A DNA stretch of 46,313 nt from a bacterium (GTDB taxonomy: Bacteria; Zixibacteria; MSB-5A5; WJJR01), in NCBI GenBank assembly GCA_021813505.1, contig JAKAKI010000059.1, positions 1 through 46,313 of the forward strand, in the 5' to 3' direction. Positions 2,723 through 23,736 of this stretch are shown piece after piece. The notes beneath the pieces were generated by a model, which was given only the letters and a program-made list of their open reading frames with translations, was not told the origin of the DNA and ran no database searches. The translations under genes and the position numbers were made by a program. Each line of letters begins with the position of its first letter. Position 1 is the stretch's first letter.

Positions 2723-5700
2723 TTACTTCACGATCATCATCTTCTTGGTCGCCGTGTAGTCACCCGCGATCATCCGATAGAAGTATACTCCGGATGGCAC
2801 TTCATCTCCATCAGTCCCACGGCCGTCCCAGGTAATGGAATGCCTGCCGGGTTCCTGAATGCCGTCGAGAAGTTTGGTAACCAACTGTCCGGAGATGTTA
2901 TATACCGCGAGCGAAACGTTCGTGCGCTCACGCAACTGGTAAACGATCTGGGTCCCCGCGTTAAACGGGTTGGGGTAATTCTGGTCGAGGGCGTACGATG
3001 CCGGGAGCGCCGAATTCGATGAGAGCAGGGCGCCTCGGTGCGTGACCTCGAGCCGATTATTACCGCCATCACGGAAGTCCACTTCGTTGAAGTCCAATGA
3101 CGTCCCTCCTGCCGCAAGGAGTTTGAATGTCATCGTAGCGATTTCACCAGACCCGCCGATCGCGGTTTCACCACCGAGCAGGGCGAGGCTGACGTCGATC
3201 ATCTGTTCCGTCTCGCGGGCGTCAAAGAACACGTGCGTCGGTGACTGCCGCAATTCGGCGCTCATGGCTGTACCGACATACTCGAGTTGCTTCGCATCGT
3301 AGGGGAGTGTGAACCGCACGGCCTTGGCATTGTTCTGGCTGTTCGCCATCATAACCTTGACCGTGAAGCTTTCCCCGACAGCCGGAGCCACATCCGGGAT
3401 CACCAGAGAGAGGCCGGACAGTCCGGTTGCCAGTGATTGATCCGCGGGTGTACTGGCGAAGATCGGTGCGAACTTGAGCAGTGGACTGACCGCGTCGAAG
3501 TTGATGGCAAAGATCACCAGATCTTCGAAATTAACCACATTGTCAGTGGTCGGGATGCCCTTGGGGCTCATGTTGAATGTCGGACCGAAGTCGACTTCGT
3601 TGTTGTATCCCGCCTGGCCATGTGACTTGCCATAGGTTGGCGCGAAGACAAAGAGATCCTGTGAATACACAGAACCGTCGTACGGTGATTTGACATCGCC
3701 CAGCCAGTACGAGGTCGACCGCGCTGAGTTTGACGGCGCGGACACGTTGCCGGCAGCGTCAACGGTGAAGGCGCGGTAATGATAGACGTCGCGTGTCGCA
3801 TTGGACAAATCATCGATGTCGATCAGCGTTGCGGCTGTTCCCGCGTAGACGCGGTCGAACGACGTGGTGTCCGACGGATACGCGCCCTCAGGATTGTCAT
3901 CGTCGTACTCGGGATACCCATGGCCACCGGCATACCAATCCGAACGCATCACAACCACGTGATCAAAATCACTGGCCGCATTCGTCCAGTTCAGGTGCAC
4001 TTTGTTGTGCCCTGGTGTCGCGGTTAGATTGGTCGGCGGCAGCGGCGGCGTCACATCCTTCGTGAAGCACCAGGTGAAGGAGCACGAGTCGGCGTTCCCG
4101 CGGCCGTTGTCGTCTTTCGCTTTGAAACGAAGGCAGTGCGCGCCTTCCAAAAGCCCGGCCCACCCCGGGATCGTCCAGGCCGCATTGCTGTAGCTCGTTC
4201 CGGCCAATCCGGTGGCGATTGCCTGCCAGCCGCCGGACAAACAGCCGTCGTACTGGTAGTATACTGCATCAAGACCACAATCGTCTGCCGCGCTGATGTT
4301 CAGCACCGGAGCGACATTGTAGATACCACCCGGCGCGGGAGAATTGACCGTGAACGACGGGTCCCCGCAGTCGGCGACCACGGACACTGGGTAGGCCAGC
4401 GAGGCGATGATCGGGTTGTTGTTTCCATCGCGCAGCGTTCCCGTGGTCATCGTGATCTGGGCGCCACTGCACAGGCTGACGCTGCCATTCAAGGCGACCG
4501 TAAACAGAGTCGCTGGACCATTCTGAGCGCCGGTGAGGACACCCAGATCCACCGTCAGGATGTCGTTGCCCACGGTGTTGTCGACCAGAGAGGTGAAGAC
4601 CGAGAAGTTGGGGGACGCCGATGTCACTCCAGAAAGGACAAGTGACGCCGGGTATTCGATGATGATGTGGGCGCCCTCCAGGTCGAAGACGGCCTCGCCG
4701 ATCCCCACGTCAAATGTGAAGTCCCCGCTGCAGTGGTAGACGATTGAGTTCGGTGTCATGTCGAGACCGCAATCCACGTTCGGGCTCGCGTCGATGTTGC
4801 CGCCACTTCCGCCAACAAGGTAGGTGCCAACCCCGGACCAGTCACTCCAGCAGTTCTGGCTGTAAGCGTTGCCCGACTTGTTGTCCGTGGCGTTGACAGT
4901 GTTCGCGAACGAATTCAGCGTTGCCGAGATCGTAGCGCCAACGTTGGCGCCGCCTCCGTAGGTCAGACCGACGCCATTACTGATGCCCAATCCGTTTTGA
5001 ACGATGTTGTTGTTTAGCAGCGTCGTCGAGTTCGTCTTGCCGGCCTCGGCAACGAGGTAAACGCCCTCGGTGAAATTCTTGAACGTGTTGTTTTCAAAAT
5101 TCACCGCGACATTGCCCGATGCGTAACCCCAGATGTCAGTCGTCACGTAGACACCGGCGCTGTTCGGTTTATCCATGCCGTCGGCGATGTTATTGGTGAA
5201 CTGCGGCGTGACGGAAGCATACGACCCCGCGCAGGTGAGGGCGTAGTCGACATTCGTAATCGTATTGAGATTGATCACCGGGGCAACATAGGGCGCAAAC
5301 ACGAAGATCCCGTAGCCGTTAGCGGGACTGTTCGAGATGCTGTTGTTTTCAATCAGGTCGGCCACACTGCCCGCCGCGTTGCCGGCGTTATCCGTGTGAA
5401 TGCCGCTGCCCGAGGCGGTGACGATGTTGTTTGTGAAAGTGCAACCAGTCGACCAGTTTGAGGCGATTGCATCGTTGCAGTTCGATACGGTATTGTGGTC
5501 AAACACGCCGGAGCCGTTGAAGTTGAACATGCCGATCGAGGCGTATTCACCCTGCACGTTGTCGACATTGTTGTGATGGAAATTGAACGTTCCACCCGAC
5601 GAGGCATAGATTCCACGCAGGTAGATGTTCTTGATTGTGCAGTTATCGACGGTCAAATTGTTGTACAGGCCAAGCGTGTGGTTGGTAATGATGCCGTTGC

Positions 5701-8080
5701 GGGCGTCTACGTCCACTCCTCCGGCAAGCACGCCGCTTGTCAAAGCAGTGTTGTTCCCGTCGAACGTGAAGCCGCTGATCGAGACGTTGCTCGCTTGCAC
5801 GAGCACCATATTGCTTGCGCCCGCCGGCAATGAACCACTGGCGCCGGGCATTGGTGCGGACAGCAACGGATAGACGAAGCAGGTGCCGGCGCCCGCGCCC
5901 AGCAATGTCATGGCCTTCCCCACGACCAGATTGTCCGTGTAGGTACCGGCGGCGACATTCACTGTTCCCGTCGTCAGCACGCCGCTGATACCGGCCGATA
6001 TGGTCTGAACCGGAGCGAGTGCGCTGCCGAATCCGCCCGGCAAGGCCGAGTCGTCCACATATGAAATCGCCCGGCCCTTGTCTGCCGGCGTGAATTGAGC
6101 ATCCACGTATGCGTTGTTGTTCGCGTTGGACAGTGCCATCAGGTCTGGATACCAGACAGGACCGTTGGCACCGAGTGTGGCGAGCAACGCAATCTCGGCT
6201 CCCTGGTTCGGCGGTAATGGCCAGTTGTTGTTGGTGAAGGTCAGGTTGGCGCCCTCATTCACCCAGCCACGTGTGCCGGAAACCGCGTTGTTTGAAATGA
6301 CACCGGTCGTCGGACCACTGAAATAACCCGGCTGACGGAGGTGATGAATCGTGTTGTTGTCGATCAAGAGACCGGTCAGGCCACCGGTTGAGATCATCGC
6401 GCGGCTGACGATGCCGTTGACGCTCCATGGCGTGCCCGGATCCGGCCCGTAAATCAGGTTGTTCAAAATGGACGCGTTGCTCGCGCCGATGTAGATGAGA
6501 TTGTGTACTCCCGTGACATCGGTCTTTTGAAGCTCGATATCACGCAGAGTCACTCCCGACGCCGATATGTTGAACGCATAGCCGACAGATTGTGCCACTT
6601 GCACGATGGTCGAGCCTGCGCCTGCCCCGTCAATTGTCAGATTCGTCTTGTTGAGGTTGACGGTACTCGACAAGATGTATGTCCCCGGGAGCACCATGAC
6701 AGTCGAACCAGACACGGCATCGACACCGGCTTGGATCGTCCCGAACGCGTCGTACCCAAAGACATAGTCCGTTCCATTGGCCGCATTGTAGACGTCGACA
6801 TCGGCCTGGCTGGCAAAGCCGTCATCGACGATGACGTACGAGGGTGCCTGACCCAAGGCCAGGGCCGAGGCGCACTCGCCGCCGATTTCGGGATAATGTG
6901 TATTGTCGGAGTACTTCCACCCGCCGCTCGGATCCTGAGTCGCTCCGAGCCAATAGGCCATGTGATTGATCTTGCCTTGATAGAGCGGGAGGTTCACTGC
7001 CGCGAGGGCCGGCGCGGCGTACGCGGTTGACTGCCAATCCTCGTCAGTGGCGTTGGCGCCGTAGCTGCCGCTGATCGCACCATTGGAGAACTGGCTGGAC
7101 ACGAGTCTCGCCGCGAGGCCGGGAACCTCAGCCATGTGGGTATTGGATGAGGTGAACGCTTGGATTAGACCAGAGACTCCCAGAGTGTACCACCAGTAGT
7201 TCACATTCGACCACGTGGGATCCCATCCGGCATCGGCTACGACATCGAACAACCCTGGATTGCTGTTGAAGGAATCCTGCCAGAGCACCTCGGCCATATC
7301 ATCAGCAGCCGTGGCATAACTGTACGGGTCCGAGGGATAGCGGGACGCCAGCATGGCGGCTGCCTGCACGTAAGTGCCGATATCCCACCCGATGATCCCA
7401 TTGGGATAGCTCGCACCGCGCACATTGCGGATATACTTCGCCAGCGAATCCGCGGAGCCGTACAAGGCGATCCGGGCATCAAACTTTGCTTTGGCGGAAT
7501 CCTTATATGCCGTGCCGGAGACGCCGGGAAGATCGTTGTAACGCATCAAGAAGATCAAATCGGACGCCGAACGGATTCCCGCGTCGGCAACCATCTTGTT
7601 GGCGGCATCGGTCAGCGCCGTAAAGTAGGTTGGGTTACCGGAGGCCAGGTACCCGTGGTACAGGCCCAGGGCCGTGACGCCGTAGATATTCTTGGGACTC
7701 GCGGCGGTCGTGTGGAAGAACGGCGCGGGGGGGGAGGTGACAACCCAGTCCCATCCGCCATCGTCAGGATCATTCGGCGATTCCAGCGCTCCGGATCCAT
7801 TACCGGCATTGTCTTCGGTGACATCCGCCTGCATCCGATTCAGGTATCCGGATGCGGCCGCCAGCGCCCCACTGATGCTGACCGGGTCGCCCGGCGCCAT
7901 CGCGGAGGCGGCACCGGCAATCATCGGGCCGCGTTGCGCATTCACCTTGCTGAGCCCCTGAACCGTTTTGCCCTGTTCCTCCCAAGGTGCCGCCACCTCG
8001 GCTTGCACCGTGAGGGCACCCAGCAGCGCCATGATTGAGACAATGGCGGCAGTTCTGACAACCACTCTGAAGATTCTCAT
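2723..8080 (-). CDS. Giant modular surface protein: toroid, beta-helix, cohesin-like, dockerin-like, sorting tail
   Basis: A 1785-residue protein; the ATG at 8080 follows GGGAGGAACAGGA. Modules in order: signal peptide (1-27, ending VQA); an alpha-helical region about 65-410 with terpenoid-cyclase/toroid-like repeats (TQDPSGGWKYSDN); a right-handed beta-helix about 425-1100 made of asparagine-rich turns (TIDGAGAGSTIV, NNTI, NNIV), of the kind seen in pectate-lyase-like folds; a cohesin-like domain (about 1110-1235); an Ig-like segment with four cysteines; an FnIII-like domain (PPTNLTATPGHNKVHLNW); a dockerin-like stretch (DVKSPYDGSVYSQDLFVFA ... VVNFEDLVIFAINF); a second cohesin-like domain; and from residue 1696 a sorting domain (ALDQNYPNPFN ... 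PSGVYFYRMIAG ... KKMMIVK). It is probably exported and anchored at the outer surface. Catalytic residues for a polysaccharide lyase or hydrolase cannot be assigned from sequence alone. No frameshift is seen over 5.3 kb. Confidence 0.88.
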   Translation of the reverse strand: MRIFRVVVRTAAIVSIMALLGALTVQAEVAAPWEEQGKTVQGLSKVNAQRGPMIAGAASAMAPGDPVSISGALAAASGYLNRMQADVTEDNAGNGSGALESPNDPDDGGWDWVVTSPPAPFFHTTAASPKNIYGVTALGLYHGYLASGNPTYFTALTDAANKMVADAGIRSASDLIFLMRYNDLPGVSGTAYKDSAKAKFDARIALYGSADSLAKYIRNVRGASYPNGIIGWDIGTYVQAAAMLASRYPSDPYSYATAADDMAEVLWQDSFNSNPGLFDVVADAGWDPTWSNVNYWWYTLGVSGLIQAFTSSNTHMAEVPGLAARLVSSQFSNGAISGSYGANATDEDWQSTAYAAPALAAVNLPLYQGKINHMAYWLGATQDPSGGWKYSDNTHYPEIGGECASALALGQAPSYVIVDDGFASQADVDVYNAANGTDYVFGYDAFGTIQAGVDAVSGSTVMVLPGTYILSSTVNLNKTNLTIDGAGAGSTIVQVAQSVGYAFNISASGVTLRDIELQKTDVTGVHNLIYIGASNASILNNLIYGPDPGTPWSVNGIVSRAMISTGGLTGLLIDNNTIHHLRQPGYFSGPTTGVISNNAVSGTRGWVNEGANLTFTNNNWPLPPNQGAEIALLATLGANGPVWYPDLMALSNANNNAYVDAQFTPADKGRAISYVDDSALPGGFGSALAPVQTISAGISGVLTTGTVNVAAGTYTDNLVVGKAMTLLGAGAGTCFVYPLLSAPMPGASGSLPAGASNMVLVQASNVSISGFTFDGNNTALTSGVLAGGVDVDARNGIITNHTLGLYNNLTVDNCTIKNIYLRGIYASSGGTFNFHHNNVDNVQGEYASIGMFNFNGSGVFDHNTVSNCNDAIASNWSTGCTFTNNIVTASGSGIHTDNAGNAAGSVADLIENNSISNSPANGYGIFVFAPYVAPVINLNTITNVDYALTCAGSYASVTPQFTNNIADGMDKPNSAGVYVTTDIWGYASGNVAVNFENNTFKNFTEGVYLVAEAGKTNSTTLLNNNIVQNGLGISNGVGLTYGGGANVGATISATLNSFANTVNATDNKSGNAYSQNCWSDWSGVGTYLVGGSGGNIDASPNVDCGLDMTPNSIVYHCSGDFTFDVGIGEAVFDLEGAHIIIEYPASLVLSGVTSASPNFSVFTSLVDNTVGNDILTVDLGVLTGAQNGPATLFTVALNGSVSLCSGAQITMTTGTLRDGNNNPIIASLAYPVSVVADCGDPSFTVNSPAPGGIYNVAPVLNISAADDCGLDAVYYQYDGCLSGGWQAIATGLAGTSYSNAAWTIPGWAGLLEGAHCLRFKAKDDNGRGNADSCSFTWCFTKDVTPPLPPTNLTATPGHNKVHLNWTNAASDFDHVVVMRSDWYAGGHGYPEYDDDNPEGAYPSDTTSFDRVYAGTAATLIDIDDLSNATRDVYHYRAFTVDAAGNVSAPSNSARSTSYWLGDVKSPYDGSVYSQDLFVFAPTYGKSHGQAGYNNEVDFGPTFNMSPKGIPTTDNVVNFEDLVIFAINFDAVSPLLKFAPIFASTPADQSLATGLSGLSLVIPDVAPAVGESFTVKVMMANSQNNAKAVRFTLPYDAKQLEYVGTAMSAELRQSPTHVFFDARETEQMIDVSLALLGGETAIGGSGEIATMTFKLLAAGGTSLDFNEVDFRDGGNNRLEVTHRGALLSSNSALPASYALDQNYPNPFNAGTQIVYQLRERTNVSLAVYNISGQLVTKLLDGIQEPGRHSITWDGRGTDGDEVPSGVYFYRMIAGDYTATKKMMIVK

Positions 8081-13135: not shown

Positions 13136-14812
13136 CTACCCTGCGCAGGGATCGACTGGATTCGGTCCGCCGCTGAACGCCGTTGCAATCAGGTAGATCA
13201 CATCGAACACATCTGTTGCGCCATCGTTGTTCGCATCACCGCGCGTCTTGGGGCAGCCCGCATCCTGTGGATCAGTTTCACCGCTGAATGCAATACCGAT
13301 GACACCGATCACGTCGAAAACATCAATCACGGCATCACCATTGATGTCTCCCTGATTCGGGCAAGCACATCCACTCACGACCGTAATGCGAATGGTTGCA
13401 GTGTTCGAGTTCGCCGACCCGTCGTTGGCCTGGTAGCGAATGGAATCCGCTCCCTGGTAGCTCAGTGCCGGCGTGTAGACGAATGCGCCACTGGCGGCAT
13501 CAAATGAAGAGACGCTTCCATGAAACGGCCCGCTGGTGTGGGTAATCGTCCAGGCAACGTTGTCAACATCTGTCACCGGCATGGCGCCGAATGTGTGCGC
13601 AAGATTCACCGTGGTCGAGGCGCTGACATCCGCGGCGACCGGAGCGTCATTGGCCGCGGTCACTGTCAGGACAACGGTCCCAGGGGATGAATTGGCTGTC
13701 CCATCATTAACCCCAAATGTGAGTGTATCGGGTCCATTGTAGTTGGGATTGGGCGTGTAGTTGAACGCCCCGGTGCTGGAGTTGAAGCCACTGGTGTTGC
13801 CGTGGAACGGACCGGTCAGGATCGCATAGCCCAGCGTGCCGCCGTCGGGGTCGTACGCCTGAAGTTGCGCGCCCACCGGAGTGTCCTCCGGCGTGCTCAC
13901 CGATGTGTCCCGCGCGATGGGAAGCGCGTTCACGTTGATCGTCACGGCTCCCGTATCGGCCAGTGTGCCGTCGGATGCGATGAAGTCCACGACGAAAGTC
14001 CCAAATTGCCCTCCGGCCGGATTGAATAGGAAATCCCCGGTGCCGTTGGCGTGAGGCGTAAAACTGGAATTCGCAGGAAGATTGACGGTCGACATCGCTG
14101 GGAAAGTCCCGTTGCAGTCCGTGGCGGAGACCAGCAGGTTCAGGGAGGCGCCTTCATTGATATTCTGAGTGGCAATGCCCGTCAGGACAGGCGAGGTGGG
14201 ATTGGGTATGCCGAGCAAGCCGGTCGCCCCATCATTGCGGGTGGGACTGTTGGCGGCAACCGTGAAATCCGTCGAATTGTTTTTTGTAAGGAGCGAGAAG
14301 GTCAAACGGGTGAGTGACTGAAATCCGTCACAGGGCAACGGGGGTGCCGGCGATCCATAGCCGGTCATATTGCCGGTGTAGTTGCCGTAGGCGACTCCGT
14401 CGATGACACCATTGATATCATCATCGAATTCGATCCGACCGTTGTGCAACGGGACAGAGCCGTTGGGAATAATGAAGTCGGGGGCGAATCCCAGTGCCGT
14501 CGCCGCGCCCGATGTCGCCAGAAGAATCGTCTCGTTGTTGTCGAGTGCTGGAAATGTGGCAGTAAAATCTTTCACGAGCGTGAGGACGGTGCCGTCCGCG
14601 TTACGCGCGTTGACCCGCGCGAACTGCAACTGCGTCTGGAACGCGGAGAGCGCCTTCAATTCAATGAACTGCACTGTCCCGTCCGCGTTGCTGAAGACCT
14701 CGCTGACCTGGATGATGTGGAACGTCTCCGGGTCTGCCCACACAGTCCCCGCCGTCGCGCCGAGTACGACCGCAAGCAGTACTGTTGATGAAACCAGTTT
14801 CAGGTAACGCAT
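13136..14812 (-). CDS. Secreted protein: lamin-tail-like domain, Ig repeats, paired dockerin repeats
   Basis: A 558-residue protein from the ATG at 14812, which follows CCAGGAGGATCTTTACA; the open frame continues upstream to 15079 but has no signal logic. Residues 1-28 form a signal peptide. Residues about 30-200 resemble a lamin-tail-like domain (FHIIQVSEVFSNADGTVQFIELKAL). Then three Ig/cadherin-like repeats of about 90 residues follow, with the characteristic sequences IARDTSVSTPEDTPV, GAFNYTPNPNYNGPDTLTF and GAFVYTPALSYQGADSIRY. The last 70 residues hold two dockerin-type repeats (GDINGDAVIDVFDVIGVIG; GDANNDGATDVFDVIYLIA) nearly identical in plan to those of the protein at 1888-2622. It is likely a cell-surface or shed adhesive protein; ligands are unknown. 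Confidence 0.87.
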   Translation of the reverse strand: MRYLKLVSSTVLLAVVLGATAGTVWADPETFHIIQVSEVFSNADGTVQFIELKALSAFQTQLQFARVNARNADGTVLTLVKDFTATFPALDNNETILLATSGAATALGFAPDFIIPNGSVPLHNGRIEFDDDINGVIDGVAYGNYTGNMTGYGSPAPPLPCDGFQSLTRLTFSLLTKNNSTDFTVAANSPTRNDGATGLLGIPNPTSPVLTGIATQNINEGASLNLLVSATDCNGTFPAMSTVNLPANSSFTPHANGTGDFLFNPAGGQFGTFVVDFIASDGTLADTGAVTINVNALPIARDTSVSTPEDTPVGAQLQAYDPDGGTLGYAILTGPFHGNTSGFNSSTGAFNYTPNPNYNGPDTLTFGVNDGTANSSPGTVVLTVTAANDAPVAADVSASTTVNLAHTFGAMPVTDVDNVAWTITHTSGPFHGSVSSFDAASGAFVYTPALSYQGADSIRYQANDGSANSNTATIRITVVSGCACPNQGDINGDAVIDVFDVIGVIGIAFSGETDPQDAGCPKTRGDANNDGATDVFDVIYLIATAFSGGPNPVDPCAG

Positions 14813-15326
14813 TGTAAAGATCCTCCTGGCCGCCGGCTGGGCGGGTCTATGGTGTGACTGTGGCGCTGACCATTCCGTGAGCGCCGGGATTCCCATTCCG
14901 AATTCTGGACAGACAATCACTTCCCCCATACGGCCATGGACCGGATCTGAATTCACCGGCTGATGCGGGACTATTCCCGCCATCACTGCCGCTGGGCCGG
15001 TACGGTAACTCATCTGGCAATAGCGCCTTGCGCGCGTCTGTGACACGACGGATGGGCCGCCGCCGGACAATGCGATCATGACGGACAGCCCCGATTAAGG
15101 AGGAAAACACTCCTCTTTACCCTAGTACCTGCCTCGGATTGAGAATTGTTCCCGAAAAAGATGCCGGTCGTGGAACAAAGGATTCGGGTCAAGGCACCAG
15201 ATGGCTGGAACTGGACGGGTTCGGAGACGTCGGTGGGCGACGGGAAGGCAAATTGGGGCGAAAAGACTCCTCATTTCCGGAACTTGGCCACTCCACCAGG
15301 GGTTTTGACATGTCAAAGGAGGCTTC
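14813..15326. other. Divergent intergenic region
   Basis: A 514-base region between the dockerin protein (minus) and the cupredoxin lipoprotein (plus). It contains AGGAGGAAAACACTCCT near 15099-15115, a short interrupted palindrome, and the 14-bp perfect palindrome at 15304-15317. No protein-like frame was seen. Confidence 0.4.
15304..15317. promoter_or_regulatory. Perfect 14-bp palindrome abutting a ribosome binding site
   Basis: TTTGACATGTCAAA is an exact inverted repeat. Its right end overlaps the AAAGGAGG ribosome site of the cupredoxin lipoprotein gene. Position and symmetry would suit a dimeric repressor site or a small RNA hairpin that controls translation; neither is shown. The contained TTGACA has no -10 box before the start codon. 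Confidence 0.4.
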
Positions 15327-16492: not shown

Positions 16493-17914
16493 TCAATCGA
16501 AGCGAACGTACTCGAATTCAATTGGCTGATTGTTGATGCCCCGGACGGGCGGTGCAATCCAGTTGGCGAATTGGCCGGGCGCGATCACACGCCCCATCAG
16601 CGATTCGATGAAGGCGTGATCGGCATCGCTCGGCAGCCACTCGGCTTTCCGGCGGATCCACTCGCTTTCGCTCATGACCCCACCGCTGGGCGATACGTGT
16701 CGTCCCGCGAAACTCCCGATGCGGCGATTGAATCCCGCGTGTGGCAGGGTGAGCCGGAATGGGAGCTCCAGCTTGGCTGGGATACGGTTCCATCGGTCCA
16801 GCCCCGCCTGCACTTCCACGATGTAATCGTCACGCAAGCGGGCGTTGAGCGCTGTCAGCGCGGGCACACTCTTCTCGACGATCTGGGTCCCTTGGACCTC
16901 GTGGACGGGATACGCATCGGAGATGAGTTTGTGGTCGTCCGTTCGTTTGGTCTCTTCGAATCGCCCCTTGAGACCGGTGGTGTAGTAGTTCGCGGCGTTG
17001 GACGACACCTCGGAGCCATAAAGATCGAGCGTCACACTGTAATGGAAATTGACGAACTTCTGGATCGTTTCAAGGTCAATCACGCCGTGCGCGCGTACCT
17101 GGGCCGGGTCGCTGATGCCGTGCTCGCGCATCACTTCGCAGGTTCTCTGGATGGTGCGCGCGACGCCCGATTCACCGACGAACATGTGATGGGCTTCCTC
17201 GGTCAGCATGAAGCGGCAGGTGCGCGACAGGGGGTCGAATGCTGATTCGGCAAGTGAGGCCAATTGGAATTTGCCATCCCGGTCGGTAAAGAAGGCGAAC
17301 ATGAAGAATGCCAGCCAGTGCCTCGTCTGCTCATTGAATGCGGTGAGGATGCGCGGATTGTTGGGATCCCCGGAACGGCGCGCCAGCAGCGCCTCGGCCT
17401 CTTCACGTCCATCGCGGCCGAAATAACGGTGCAGCAAATACACCATCGCCCAGAGATGGCGGCCCTCTTCGACATTCACTTGAAAGAGATTTCGCATGTC
17501 GTACAACGAGGGCGCCGTGGCGCTCAAGAGCCGCTGTTGTTCCACGGATGCCGGTTCGGTATCGCCCTGAGTGACAATGATGCGCCGGAGCGTCGACCGG
17601 TACTCGCCGGGAACCTCCTGCCAGGTGGGCTCGCCCTTGTGATCACCGAACGAGACCGCGCGGTCTTCGTCGCGGGGCGCGAGAAAAATGCCCCAGCGAT
17701 AGTCCGGCATTCGGACATAGCCGAAATTGGCCCAGCCGTCTTTCTCCACGCTGATCGCGGTGCGCAGGTAGACTTGCAGTGCGGCGGTGTCCTGCGGACC
17801 CGTGTCGCCCCACCACTGGAGAAACTCTGGCTGCCAGCGTTCGAGGGCGCGCTGAAGTGTCTTGTCATTGCCGAGATCAACGTTATTGGGAATCGTCTGC
17901 GAGTAGTCGATCAT
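16493..17914 (-). CDS. boxB: Benzoyl-CoA 2,3-epoxidase oxygenase subunit BoxB
   Basis: A 473-residue protein of the length typical for BoxB. BoxB is a diiron enzyme that, with electrons from BoxA, adds one oxygen atom to benzoyl-CoA to give 2,3-epoxybenzoyl-CoA in the cytoplasm. The ligands known from the Azoarcus enzyme fall at the same residue numbers as far as I recall them: Glu120, Glu150 and His153 (VNVEEGRHLW), Asp211 (FFTDRDGKF), Glu240 and His243 (LTEEAHHMFVG). The C-terminus (INNQPIEFEYVRFD) is also family-like. It starts 21 bases after boxC on the same strand and shares an overlap zone with the next small gene, so the three form an operon. The flavin/iron-sulfur reductase BoxA is not in the window. 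Confidence 0.95.
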   Translation of the reverse strand: MIDYSQTIPNNVDLGNDKTLQRALERWQPEFLQWWGDTGPQDTAALQVYLRTAISVEKDGWANFGYVRMPDYRWGIFLAPRDEDRAVSFGDHKGEPTWQEVPGEYRSTLRRIIVTQGDTEPASVEQQRLLSATAPSLYDMRNLFQVNVEEGRHLWAMVYLLHRYFGRDGREEAEALLARRSGDPNNPRILTAFNEQTRHWLAFFMFAFFTDRDGKFQLASLAESAFDPLSRTCRFMLTEEAHHMFVGESGVARTIQRTCEVMREHGISDPAQVRAHGVIDLETIQKFVNFHYSVTLDLYGSEVSSNAANYYTTGLKGRFEETKRTDDHKLISDAYPVHEVQGTQIVEKSVPALTALNARLRDDYIVEVQAGLDRWNRIPAKLELPFRLTLPHAGFNRRIGSFAGRHVSPSGGVMSESEWIRRKAEWLPSDADHAFIESLMGRVIAPGQFANWIAPPVRGINNQPIEFEYVRFD

Positions 17915-17935
17915 GAGGACGTCGCTTTCCTGAGT

Positions 17936-19576
17936 TCAGACCCGCTGATTGTCAAACTTGGCGCGGGTGCCGGTACCATACACTGTTAGCGCTCCCGTCG
18001 GGCCAACGGCATTGGGCCGAATGAAGATCCAGTTCTGCCAGGCGGAGAGGCGCGCGAAGATGCGCGATTCCATCGTCTCATGGCCGCCGAACCGCAAATT
18101 CGCTTCGAGGCCCGTCAGCGCGTCGGGAGACAGCGATGTGCGGCCCTCGATGGCCTGCCGCAGTTCATCGGCCCAATCCAAATCGTCGGGAGCAAATGTC
18201 ACGAGGCCGAGATCTGATGCAACCCGTGCCGTAAGTGGAATCCCAATCTTGCTGCGCAAGAGCTGCAGGGATTCTGAGGATTGATAAAACCGCGCTTCCA
18301 GGCGGCTGAGGCGGTTCACCATGGGCATGGCGCCAAAGTTGGCTTCGGACAATGTCAATGTAGGACCGCCGTCACCCACCGGCACATCGAGCATGTATAC
18401 ACGATCGGACGCGAGTGCCAATTCGAGAAGTGATCCGGCGAAACAGGAACCTGGTTCGACGATCGTGTACATCGAACGTGACGAGACGTCAAGGCGGGCA
18501 AACGTGCGCCGCATCATGCCGAGCACTTCGCGCACGAACCAGTGGTCGCGATGTTTCAGAACCAGATTGTCGATGGCCACGACGGTATCGGGGTTGCCGC
18601 TCGTTTTCCAGAGCCACAGGCCCAGATCGAGTTCGTTGGTTCGCAAACTCAGGATCGCGTCATCCAGTTCACGGCTCATTTGCAGCGGCCACCAGTTGGC
18701 GCCGGCCGCGATGATCTGCTCAAGAGTTGATTCTGTCACCTGCGCCGGGGGGCGTATGGTAAAAGTGGCGACCCGGGCGGAGCGGTCGATGCGCACGTCG
18801 ACGTATTGGTAGTGGCAGCCGTCAGCGTCGATGATTCGTTGCAGGGGCGTCAGTGCGATGCCCGCGGCTTGGACCGACCGTCCATGCGCTGCCAACTCTG
18901 TGGCCCGTTTCCGGATCGATTCATTGAACTGCTGCGGTTTCACGATTTCGTCGACCAGTTTCCAATCCTTGGCGCGCTGGCCCTGTATGCCATCCGGAAC
19001 CGTGCAGAAGAAATCAGCATGATCCCGGCGGACTTTGCGTTTGTCAGTCAACCGGGTTAAACCGCCGGTGCCGGGCAAGACGCCAAGGAGGGGGACCTCA
19101 GGCAGGCTGACCGCGGAAGATCGGTCATCCACCAGGACGATCTCATCGCAGGCCAGCGCCAGTTCATAGCCGCCGCCCGCGGTGCTGCCGTTGCAGGCGG
19201 CGATGGATTTCAGGCCCGAGTGTTCACTGGAGTCCTCGATCCCATTGCGTGTCTCATTGGTAAACTTGCAGAAGTTCACTTTCCACGCATGGGTGGACAG
19301 GCCGAGCATGTAGATATTGGCGCCCGAACAAAACACCCGATTCTTGGCGGAAGCGAGGACCACACAGCCGACCTCGGGGTGCTCGAACCGGATGCGCTGC
19401 AAGGCATCCTGCAATTCAATATCAACACCGAGATCGTAGGAATTCAGTTTCAACTTGTATCCTGGCTGGATGCCGCCCTCCTCCTGAACGTCCATGGCCA
19501 GGGTGGCCACCGGGCCGTCATAGGAGACGCGCCAGTGTTTGTAGCGCGATGGATCGGTTTGGTAGTCGACAGTCAC
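17936..19576 (-). CDS. boxC: 2,3-Epoxybenzoyl-CoA dihydrolase BoxC
   Basis: A 546-residue member of the crotonase superfamily, with the double-length BoxC architecture. BoxC opens the ring of 2,3-epoxybenzoyl-CoA by adding two waters, releasing formate and 3,4-dehydroadipyl-CoA semialdehyde. Residues about 70-190 carry the oxyanion-hole region (VVLASAKNRVFCSGANIYML; AACNGSTAGGGYELALACDE; EVPLLGVLPGTGG). The C-terminal half has a second degenerate crotonase-like part (SCFAGSLLELALASDRVYML) and ends with AWQNWIFIRPNAVGPTGAL, characteristic of BoxC. It starts at GTG with no ribosome site; a promoter match placed so that transcription begins at the GTG suggests a leaderless message. First gene of boxC-boxB-HTH. 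Confidence 0.95.
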   Translation of the reverse strand: MTVDYQTDPSRYKHWRVSYDGPVATLAMDVQEEGGIQPGYKLKLNSYDLGVDIELQDALQRIRFEHPEVGCVVLASAKNRVFCSGANIYMLGLSTHAWKVNFCKFTNETRNGIEDSSEHSGLKSIAACNGSTAGGGYELALACDEIVLVDDRSSAVSLPEVPLLGVLPGTGGLTRLTDKRKVRRDHADFFCTVPDGIQGQRAKDWKLVDEIVKPQQFNESIRKRATELAAHGRSVQAAGIALTPLQRIIDADGCHYQYVDVRIDRSARVATFTIRPPAQVTESTLEQIIAAGANWWPLQMSRELDDAILSLRTNELDLGLWLWKTSGNPDTVVAIDNLVLKHRDHWFVREVLGMMRRTFARLDVSSRSMYTIVEPGSCFAGSLLELALASDRVYMLDVPVGDGGPTLTLSEANFGAMPMVNRLSRLEARFYQSSESLQLLRSKIGIPLTARVASDLGLVTFAPDDLDWADELRQAIEGRTSLSPDALTGLEANLRFGGHETMESRIFARLSAWQNWIFIRPNAVGPTGALTVYGTGTRAKFDNQRV

Positions 19577-19582
19577 GGCGAT

Positions 19583-19611
19583 AGAGTAGTTTTTTGGTCG
19601 CCTTTAGTCAA
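19583..19611 (-). promoter_or_regulatory. Possible leaderless promoter of boxC
   Basis: On the minus strand TTGACT (19611-19606, five of six) and TACTCT (19588-19583, with the most conserved first, second and last positions) are exactly 17 bases apart. Only ATCGCC separates the -10 box from the GTG start, so transcription would start at the start codon. This agrees with the lack of a Shine-Dalgarno sequence before boxC. Confidence 0.45.
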
Positions 19612-19671
19612 GTTCCGGTTTCATGTTTGCCGTTTCCGTTGCATTATACTCCCGGCGGGAGGAATTGCAAA

Positions 19672-21222
19672 ATGGAAGCAATCGTTCTGAAAAGCTTCGT
19701 GGGCGGCAAATGGGTGGCTGGGTCGGACCGGGGAACGGCACTGGGCAATCCTTCGGACGGCGCAACTGTCGCGTGGTCCAGCTCGAAGGGGGTCAATCTG
19801 GCCGCGGCGCTGGACTATTCGCGGCGTGTCGGTGGCCCCAATCTGCGGAAGATGACGTACGCGTCGCGTGCGGCGCTTCTGGGGCGGATTGCCGAAACGC
19901 TGGCCGCGCACCGTGAGCGGTGGAGTGAAATCTCACGGATCAACTCGGGGTGTACGAAGTCGGATGCCGCGCTCGACGTGGATGGGTCGATTGGGACGTT
20001 GAAATACTTTGCACGGCTTGGGGCCAGGCTGGGGGAGACATCGCTACTGGCCGACGATCAGCCGGCGCAACTCACCCGCGCACAGAATTTCCAGGGCTGC
20101 CACGTGGGGGTTCCGCTCCATGGTGTGGCGATTCTCATCAATGCGTTCAATTTCCCGGCATGGGGTCTTTGGGAGAAGGCCGCTATCAGTCTCATGGCGG
20201 GAGTGCCGGTATTCGCCAAGCCGGCGACGGCGACCGCCTGGCTGGCGCAGGAGATGGTCGAATCGCTGATCTCCGCAAACGTACTACCCGAAGGCAGCTT
20301 GTCCGTATTGTGCGGTTCTCCGGGAGACCTTCTTGAACATGTCTGTTTTGGCGACGTGGTGTCATTCACCGGGTCGGCGTCAACTGGTGCGATGGTACGC
20401 TGGCATGATCGGGTCCGTGCCCAGGGGATTCGCGTGAATGTCGAGGCGGACAGCTTGAATTCTGCGATCCTGGGACCGGACGGGGCACCGGGGACGCCGG
20501 CATTCCAGTTCTTTGTGCGCGAGGTCGTTCGGGAGATGACGATCAAAGCGGGTCAGAAGTGCACCGCGATTCGCCGAATTCTGGCGCCGGCCGATCGCGT
20601 GGGCGCCGTGACCGAAGCCATTGCGGCGGAATTGGCCAAAGTCGTGGTGGGCGATCCCGCCAATCCTGAGGTGACGATGGGCCCAGTCGTCAACGAATCT
20701 CAACGAGCGGGTGTGGAAGCGGGGATAACCACACTGTCAGGCGAGGCCGAGATCGTCTTCAATCCGAAGGCGCCCTCAGGTGGAGCGTTTGTCTCACCTA
20801 CGTTGCTGAAACTGCGTCCGGAATCTGAAGGCCGAGTGGTGAATGAAGTCGAAGTGTTCGGCCCGGTAAGCACCGTGATACCGTATCGAAACAGTGAAGA
20901 GGCATTCGAGATCGCGCGGCGCGGCGGCGGGTCGTTGGCGGCGTCGGTGTATAGCGCTGACCCGGACTATCTGGCCGGCGCGGCCGCGGCACTCGGTTCC
21001 AGCACGGGAAGAGTCTTGCTGGTTGATCCGACAATCGGGGATTTGCATCCGGGGCACGGCGTCGTGCTTCCGTCGCTCACACACGGCGGACCCGGACGGG
21101 CTGGTGGAGGCGAAGAGCTGGGTGGGCTCAACGGATTGTGGTTCTATCATCAAAAAGTCGCTTTACAGGGATCCGATACCACGCTCAAACAAGTGCTCAC
21201 TCGTGCCGGGAATCCGCGCTAG
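19672..21222 (+). CDS. boxD: 3,4-Dehydroadipyl-CoA semialdehyde dehydrogenase BoxD
   Basis: A 516-residue aldehyde dehydrogenase. The ATG at 19672 follows GGGAGGAATTGCAAA. BoxD oxidises 3,4-dehydroadipyl-CoA semialdehyde, the BoxC product, to the acid using NADP+. Visible features: the N-terminal SFVGGKWVAG; the CHVGVPLHGVAILINAFNFP substrate/cofactor region; the nucleotide-binding FTGSASTG; the general base in VEADSLNSAIL; and the catalytic cysteine in GQKCTAIRRILAP. These patterns are shared with the ring-cleavage aldehyde dehydrogenases of the BoxD/PaaZ group rather than with common acetaldehyde enzymes. It is divergent from boxC with a 95-base shared control region, which fits coordinate regulation. 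Confidence 0.93.
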   Translation: MEAIVLKSFVGGKWVAGSDRGTALGNPSDGATVAWSSSKGVNLAAALDYSRRVGGPNLRKMTYASRAALLGRIAETLAAHRERWSEISRINSGCTKSDAALDVDGSIGTLKYFARLGARLGETSLLADDQPAQLTRAQNFQGCHVGVPLHGVAILINAFNFPAWGLWEKAAISLMAGVPVFAKPATATAWLAQEMVESLISANVLPEGSLSVLCGSPGDLLEHVCFGDVVSFTGSASTGAMVRWHDRVRAQGIRVNVEADSLNSAILGPDGAPGTPAFQFFVREVVREMTIKAGQKCTAIRRILAPADRVGAVTEAIAAELAKVVVGDPANPEVTMGPVVNESQRAGVEAGITTLSGEAEIVFNPKAPSGGAFVSPTLLKLRPESEGRVVNEVEVFGPVSTVIPYRNSEEAFEIARRGGGSLAASVYSADPDYLAGAAAALGSSTGRVLLVDPTIGDLHPGHGVVLPSLTHGGPGRAGGGEELGGLNGLWFYHQKVALQGSDTTLKQVLTRAGNPR

Positions 21223-21803: not shown

Positions 21804-21933
21804 CATCTGAGCACCACAGGCGATACACGCCAGAAATGCCGCCAAGATATCGCTGGCCCACCTCTTCCCCGATCAATTGATTCGGTTCACGGCCCTGCCA
21901 CCCGGCAGGCGAGTTGTGCGGACGGCAAAGACG

Positions 21934-23736
21934 ATGAACATTCTGATGCTCCTCTCCCAGCACGCGCTCACCGGCGCCGAAGTTTATGCGGTGACAGTGG
22001 CTGAGGAGTTGATTCGGCGCGGGCACCGGGTGTGGATTGTTTCCGACACGCTGACGGCAGCGACCAGAGCCACCTTCGTTCAAGCGCCCGTTCGCCGCAA
22101 GAGTTTGTTCGCTCGTGCTCGTCTGATTTTGTGGCTGCGCCGATTCGTGAAGCAGAATCGGATTCAAGTCATTCACAGTCATTCGCGGGCCTCGGCATGG
22201 GTTGGCCAGTTGGCGGCCCGATTGTGCCGGATTCCCCACGTGGTGACCGTACATGGTAGGCAGCATCTTCACATTTCGCGCCGCTTCATTCCCGCCATGG
22301 GTGATGCGACCATTGCGGTGTGCGAAGTGCTCAAGACACATCTTGAGAGTGATCTGCAAGTCGATTCGAACCGCGTGGAATTGATCAGGAATCCGGTTCA
22401 TATCGAGGCGGGCCCCGTATCGACAGTTTCAAATCCTGCCCACCCCACGATTTCACTCATCGGACGGCTGGATGGGCCGAAGGGCGATGTCGCGTTCAAT
22501 CTATTGAAGCGGATCATACAGGACGCTTCTATCAAGGCCGAAATCAACGTAATCGGAGGCACAACCATACCCGATCGCTTCCAGCAATTCGCCGACCGCG
22601 TGCGTTTCATAGGCCAGGTGCCTGGAATTGCCGAGTGGGTGCTGAAATCCGATGTCGTCATCGGTGCCGGACGCGTCGCGGTCGAAGCAATTCTATTGGG
22701 CCGCCCGGTTGTTGCTGTGGGTGAAGGATGCGCGTTGGGGCTGTTAACTTACGGGAATCTGGCCGAAGCCCTGGCGACCAATTTTGGCGATGTCAGCGAG
22801 GGTCCACGCTTCGAGTGGAATCAGATCGTAGCGGATATCGAGGCGGGACTAACTGAGCGGCGCGTTGAAGAGCAGGTGGCGAATGAGGTTCGGCGGGAGT
22901 ATGACCGGGAGCGAATCGTCGGTCGTCTTGAGCAACTCTACCAGCACGTGCTGGTGATGAAGCGCCGGTATGAGATCCCGGTACTCTGTTATCATCGTGT
23001 GATTGCCGACAGTGACACGCGGCGCGGGCATGGCATCTGGGTGACCGCATCGCAGTTCGATGCGCACTTGTCGTATCTGAAACGCGCGGGATTCCACCCG
23101 ATCACGTTTGCCCAGCTCAACTCCGTCAACCGTCTGGATCAGAGGGAGCGATATATCATCCTGACCTTTGATGATGGGTATGCCGACAACTACGAAATCG
23201 CGTTGCCACTGCTGCGAAAACACGGCTTTATGGCGGTGATATTCCCAGTGCTCGGACACAAGGATAATGCCTGGGATACAGCTCGGGACTCCGGTCAGCC
23301 ACGGCTTCCGCTATTGAATAGAGAGCAGATTCAAGAAATGGCAGCTTTGGGAATCGAGTTCGGCTCGCACGCGATGACCCATCGTCCACTGCCATCGCTG
23401 ACGGCCGCCGAAATCGTGGACGAGATGGCACAATCAAGGGCAGAGCTGAAACGAATTATCGGACAAGAGGTGGACGTCATCGCCTATCCCTACGGTGAGT
23501 ACAACGATAAGGTGAAACAGGCAGCAGCCCAATCCGGATTCAAGTACGGCGTCACAACCGATCACGGGCCGATCGCAATCTCGGACGACTTTTTCGCCAT
23601 CCGGCGCATCATTGTCTTCCCCAACACAACGACCTACCGTCTGGCCAGAAAAGTGCGGGGTGATTACGCCTTCCGGCAGACCGCCAGAGAATCGGCGTTC
23701 TCTCGGCGCGCGACGCCGGAGCGGAACTCCAAATGA
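21934..23736 (+). CDS. Glycosyltransferase fused to polysaccharide deacetylase
   Basis: A 600-residue protein from ATG at 21934 (MNILMLLSQHALTGAEVYAV). Residues 1 to about 340 are a GT-B-fold, family 4-type glycosyltransferase: the N-terminal glycine-rich start, VIHSHSRASAWVGQLAARL, PHVVTVHGRQ, ISLIGRLDGPKG, and a donor-site region GAGRVAVEAILLGRPVVAVG, in which alanine replaces the first of the usual two glutamates (E..x..E motif). Residues about 348-580 are a NodB-type carbohydrate esterase: VLCYHRV, the metal/base motif TFDDGYADN (about 410-418), GSHAMTHRPLP with the two metal histidines, and AYPYGEYND. Each half is complete, so one chain may build and then deacetylate a surface glycan. 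No membrane segment or signal peptide is visible, which places it in the cytoplasm. The frame could begin at TTG 21877. Confidence 0.88.
   Translation: MNILMLLSQHALTGAEVYAVTVAEELIRRGHRVWIVSDTLTAATRATFVQAPVRRKSLFARARLILWLRRFVKQNRIQVIHSHSRASAWVGQLAARLCRIPHVVTVHGRQHLHISRRFIPAMGDATIAVCEVLKTHLESDLQVDSNRVELIRNPVHIEAGPVSTVSNPAHPTISLIGRLDGPKGDVAFNLLKRIIQDASIKAEINVIGGTTIPDRFQQFADRVRFIGQVPGIAEWVLKSDVVIGAGRVAVEAILLGRPVVAVGEGCALGLLTYGNLAEALATNFGDVSEGPRFEWNQIVADIEAGLTERRVEEQVANEVRREYDRERIVGRLEQLYQHVLVMKRRYEIPVLCYHRVIADSDTRRGHGIWVTASQFDAHLSYLKRAGFHPITFAQLNSVNRLDQRERYIILTFDDGYADNYEIALPLLRKHGFMAVIFPVLGHKDNAWDTARDSGQPRLPLLNREQIQEMAALGIEFGSHAMTHRPLPSLTAAEIVDEMAQSRAELKRIIGQEVDVIAYPYGEYNDKVKQAAAQSGFKYGVTTDHGPIAISDDFFAIRRIIVFPNTTTYRLARKVRGDYAFRQTARESAFSRRATPERNSK

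Follow-up and report, generated by a model that had tools for sequence, protein, structure and literature searches.

The closest described system is WahA of Aeromonas, a single protein that combines a glycosyltransferase with a carbohydrate esterase and that is described, in the parts of the report drawn on here, as adding GlcNAc and subsequently deacetylating it to GlcN (PMC5372535). The same excerpts add that wahA is conserved in species of Vibrio as well (PMC5372535). In Klebsiella the same two reactions serve the LPS outer core, but they are encoded by two separate genes: WabH and WabN are both described as required for core GlcN, and WabN as an LPS-GlcNAc deacetylase working together with WabH (PMC8552709). 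Similarly, for Acinetobacter baumannii it is described that loss of either the predicted deacetylase 2901 or the predicted transferase 2900, again encoded by separate genes, removes the branching GlcN from LOS (PMC10936431). The Klebsiella and Acinetobacter pairs show that core GlcN can come from a transferase and deacetylase pair. A literature search on lipopolysaccharide glycosyltransferases of Zixibacteria returned nothing. We describe here a gene from this lineage that encodes a glycosyltransferase and a deacetylase in one chain, an architecture that already has a characterised precedent in WahA.

The gene lies on a 46,313-nucleotide contig (JAKAKI010000059.1, here termed the window, to which all positions refer unless stated otherwise) of a 3.9 Mb assembly in 95 contigs. 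One intact frame on the forward strand, from the ATG at 21934 to the stop codon at 23734-23736, encodes a protein of 600 residues that open reading frame, Pfam and NCBIfam analyses identify as a bifunctional GT4-type glycosyltransferase and CE4-type polysaccharide deacetylase (21934-23736 including the stop). A longer start at the TTG at 21877 is possible, and a scan of the window for a strict ribosome-binding pattern gave a single hit, located elsewhere than this gene. The transferase half (residues 1-340, 21934-22953) contains the GT4 N-terminal domain PF13439 at residues 14-158 (E 6e-23, above its cut-off) and a weak match to the second Rossmann-type domain PF13692 at residues 171-265 (E 2e-5, below the curated cut-off). 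It is also weakly similar (23%, E 4e-8) to Acinetobacter genes annotated as LpsB. The deacetylase half (residues 341-600, 22954-23733) matches PF01522 at residues 402-538 (E 6e-29), so that the single chain with a family 4-type transferase and a NodB-type deacetylase, as claimed in the initial annotation, is confirmed. In NCBIfam this half is nearest to PgaB and IcaB, far under their cut-offs, and we therefore assign it to neither. Structure prediction yielded a usable model for the deacetylase half, and residues 340-578 superimpose on PplD (6dq3_A) with a Z score of 26.6 over 217 aligned residues at 2.5 Å. Structures of PplD, BC0361, BA0330, PgaB and IcaB are matched with Z scores of 22-27, and Salmonella ArnD is among the structural matches as well. 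Matches to UDP-GlcNAc 2-epimerase structures (rmsd about 15 Å) were set aside. For the transferase half the model is poor (pLDDT below 50 over most of residues 1-340), and we draw no conclusion from it about the structure of the donor site. PgaB, IcaB and PplD have the same CE4 fold and catalytic residues, but they are not fused to a GT4 domain. These three are exported or surface enzymes. The fusion protein is basic (pI about 9.5), and its hydropathy profile (maximal 19-residue value 1.63) gives no good sign of a signal peptide or a membrane-spanning segment, in line with its earlier description as cytoplasmic-looking.

A sequencing error joining two adjacent genes had been named as a possible refutation, and the survey of other genomes speaks against it. 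Among 58 genomes searched, the host's own included, full-length fused relatives are present in G001 (same genus, 88%) and in G029 (same class, other family, about 41-42%). An 88% relative is contained in a groundwater record of Ca. Zixiibacteriota. When 132 genomes from the phylum were searched with a profile (E <= 1e-40), seven gave matches: full-length in G000, G001 and G029, partial in two genomes from the genus of G029 (the transferase side in G056, a short deacetylase piece in G040) and restricted to the deacetylase in G023 and G015. The fused family is thus rare in the phylum. A further fused protein, about 42% identical over the full length and with the same domain order and the motifs GAGR and NFGD, is encoded in Fusobacterium vincentii (NZ_CP084075.1, 1637059-1638876), where it is unannotated in the record. 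This record is the one among 438 matching plasmid records that covers 80% of the query, and it holds the whole length; it is filed as a plasmid, and with 2.1 Mb and one annotated feature it is probably a chromosome. Of 13 matching phage records none covers 80% of the query, and in viral contigs eight loci match the deacetylase half only, with no relatives of the transferase half. Our literature search on the Fusobacterium protein found no functional study, and an excerpt of one study on Fusobacterium LPS genes describes separate polysaccharide deacetylase and glycosyltransferase genes that are not recognisably this fusion. The four full-length proteins, the one from the window included, align through the junction between the halves (residues 325-346, 22906-22971). 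Comparison with the same-genus gene, using our own Nei-Gojobori script on these two genes, gave dN/dS values of 0.144 (transferase half) and 0.146 (deacetylase half), indicating that both halves are maintained under similar selective constraint. Because the fusion appears again in other assemblies, also from another phylum, and its halves are equally constrained, a sequencing or assembly join of two genes is ruled out.

The four-protein alignment also bears on catalysis. In the deacetylase half the CE4 motif 1 TFDD (residues 411-414, 23164-23175), the motif 2 HxxxH (H479 and H483, 23368-23382) and the motif AYPYG (residues 517-521, 23482-23496) are invariant, including D413, D414, H479, H483 and the YPYG stretch 518-521 in all four proteins. 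An inactive deacetylase was rejected, because the Asp-Asp and His-x3-His metal-binding and catalytic residues are all conserved. The second refutation named at the outset, that one half lacks its catalytic residues, is thereby averted for the deacetylase. The claim that each half carries its landmark motifs stands for this half and needs qualification for the transferase, where E-x7-E has lost its first Glu in 4/4 proteins and keeps the second in 3/4.

We propose with moderate confidence that the protein is a two-step cytoplasmic enzyme that places GlcN on a lipid-linked oligosaccharide, for which the LPS core is the likeliest candidate. The sugar donor, its acceptor, which step comes first, where the protein resides and that it is active at all are inferred. 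The protein would reside in the cytoplasm, probably associated with the membrane surface. Its GT4 half would transfer GlcNAc from UDP-GlcNAc to an acceptor glycolipid, and its CE4 half, with a metal bound by Asp/His/His, would then remove the acetyl group to leave a positively charged GlcN. Both steps would precede flipping of the glycolipid, and the fusion would couple them such that little acetylated intermediate is left. Deacetylation directly after sugar addition, which the initial annotation had derived from the cytoplasmic fusion, is the best reading and gains a precedent in the description of WahA (PMC5372535). The accompanying notion that NodB-type enzymes are rare inside the cell was overstated, given that rhizobial NodB itself is cytosolic, that WabN and WahA are core-assembly enzymes and that ArnD is among the structural matches. 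As far as the published description of WahA allows comparison, both proteins hold a glycosyltransferase and a carbohydrate esterase in one chain. Genes of the lipid A/Kdo pathway are likewise encoded by the host. Frames for LpxC-FabZ, LpxA, LpxB, WaaA and an LpxK-like protein cluster on contig C6, apart from the fusion gene; LpxC and WaaA were assigned by family search, and the names FabZ, LpxA, LpxB and LpxK were read from translations only. Of 29 related genomes, 27 have LpxC, and the host genome has six matches to the heptosyltransferase family PF01075. The host therefore probably provides an acceptor on which an LPS-core enzyme could act. Within the C6 cluster, LpxC and a FabZ-like part are joined in a single frame (L039:4569-5966).

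A clear difference to WahA is the genomic context, because WahA belongs to the LPS core (wa) cluster, whereas the fusion gene here lies beside box and pentose-phosphate genes. Upstream are boxB, boxC and boxD-like genes of benzoyl-CoA breakdown, and downstream are genes for phosphogluconate dehydrogenase, a 6-phosphogluconolactonase-like protein and glucose-6-phosphate dehydrogenase. The initial annotation had suggested looking nearby for lipid-linked sugar or deacetylated-glycan genes; none was found beside the gene, which is not part of an LPS or glycan cluster, and the lipid A/Kdo genes are on another contig. The relative in G029 (L004) adjoins Rieske and cytochrome b-type genes, and that of Fusobacterium sits among transport and other genes, both as read from translations. 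Thus, no neighbourhood points to a pathway. Since the gene lies outside an LPS cluster, its donor site is altered and WahA is known to us by description only, we liken the protein to WahA in its way of working and classify it only as a GT4-CE4 fusion. The boxB, boxC and boxD-like genes (16493-21222; the last for a 3,4-dehydroadipyl-CoA semialdehyde dehydrogenase) all score above NCBIfam cut-offs, and these matches point to aerobic breakdown of benzoyl-CoA by the box pathway in a genome of the Ca. Zixiibacteriota type. On the reverse strand, a 1785-residue protein (2723-8080) with a match to a C-terminal T9SS type A sorting domain suggests that the host may have type IX secretion, and a 647-residue protein (13136-15079) carries tandem-95 repeats (NF012211).

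The absence of a polysaccharide cluster beside the gene, and beside those relatives for which neighbouring genes were inspected, also weighs against the rival that survives best, namely that the same two steps act not on the LPS core but on an undecaprenyl-linked precursor of O-antigen or capsule, or on another glycolipid precursor. We regard this as unlikely, although such pathways generally also use GT4 and CE4 enzymes and two other fusions speak in its favour. A 'trifunctional glycosyltransferase/class I SAM-dependent methyltransferase/polysaccharide deacetylase' of Sulfitobacter, found in public annotation, sits among polysaccharide, ABC-transporter and sulfotransferase genes. Moreover, two genomes of the same order, G007 and G008, encode a fusion in the opposite order (L040:1025-3268, forward strand; L041:764-3007, reverse strand) that in each case adjoins another GT4 gene, which it follows. 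This protein of 747 residues, with domains assigned by Pfam on the G007 sequence, starts with the deacetylase and has a canonical E-x7-E type motif. The opposite-order and three-part fusions indicate that joins of glycosyltransferase and deacetylase probably arose more than once. Stand-alone relatives of the deacetylase are not simple split versions, since none of 11 stretches around them (nine from other genomes and one each from G000 and G001, some ending at contig ends) contained a GT4-like frame at E <= 1e-4 when queried with the present transferase half and two other GT4 sequences. Five of the 11 stand-alone deacetylases have a hydrophobic stretch before the motif (17-residue mean above 2, our own threshold), so that some look anchored and some not.

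Returning to the favoured enzyme that adds GlcN to the LPS core, its donor site calls for closer consideration. The GAGR motif (residues 244-247, 22663-22674) lies at the place of E-x7-E, which we take to be the donor-site motif of GT4 enzymes. The alteration of this motif noted initially is borne out: in all four fused proteins the first Glu is missing, with I243 at its place here and GAGR or GSGR following, while it is present in two canonical GT4 proteins from the host's order. A second alignment, against these two canonical proteins, places the first-Glu position in a deletion. The second Glu, E251 (22684-22686), is kept in three of the four fused proteins and replaced by Ser in L004, where E-x7-E is fully lost. 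With the first Glu missing in all and the second in one, transferase activity is not certain. All four fused proteins share R178, K183 and the GxGR and NFGD stretches, and an unfused transferase on an Alicyclobacillus (Bacillota) plasmid has, in corresponding positions, GTGR followed by the second Glu, and FGDH. Judging by this one unfused example, the motif change either predates the fusion or arose independently of it, and the missing first Glu with GxGR looks like a trait of a GT4 subfamily. A more far-reaching and doubtful proposal is that GxGR...NFGD marks a GT4 subfamily that lacks the full E-x7-E pair and works with a different donor or with altered chemistry at the donor site. Its fusion to a deacetylase would then be a previously unstudied GlcN-adding enzyme, common to Ca. 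Zixiibacteriota and Fusobacteriota, by which a glycolipid receives a cationic sugar away from the established LPS-core loci. The altered motif could also mean that the transferase half is dead, or is not a UDP-GlcNAc transferase, and only brings the deacetylase to its glycolipid. We consider this improbable, because R178, K183, GxGR and NFGD are invariant, GTGR and FGDH occur in the Alicyclobacillus protein, and the transferase half is constrained at the dN/dS given above. We give equally little credence to the deacetylase acting first, converting UDP-GlcNAc to UDP-GlcN for subsequent addition by the transferase half: this order is proposed by the authors for Acinetobacter 2901/2900 in the available part of their report (PMC10936431), but the closest structural relatives here are named polysaccharide or peptidoglycan deacetylases rather than nucleotide-sugar enzymes, and WahA (PMC5372535) and WabN (PMC8552709) are described, in the excerpts at hand, as acting on LPS-bound GlcNAc.

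The fused proteins offer a compact system for asking whether the first donor-site Glu is required in GT4 enzymes. A WahA-like strategy, in which GlcNAc is added and deacetylated at once, would be present in Fusobacterium as well as in an uncultured phylum. In Fusobacterium, the GlcN that the fusion puts into LPS may determine surface charge.
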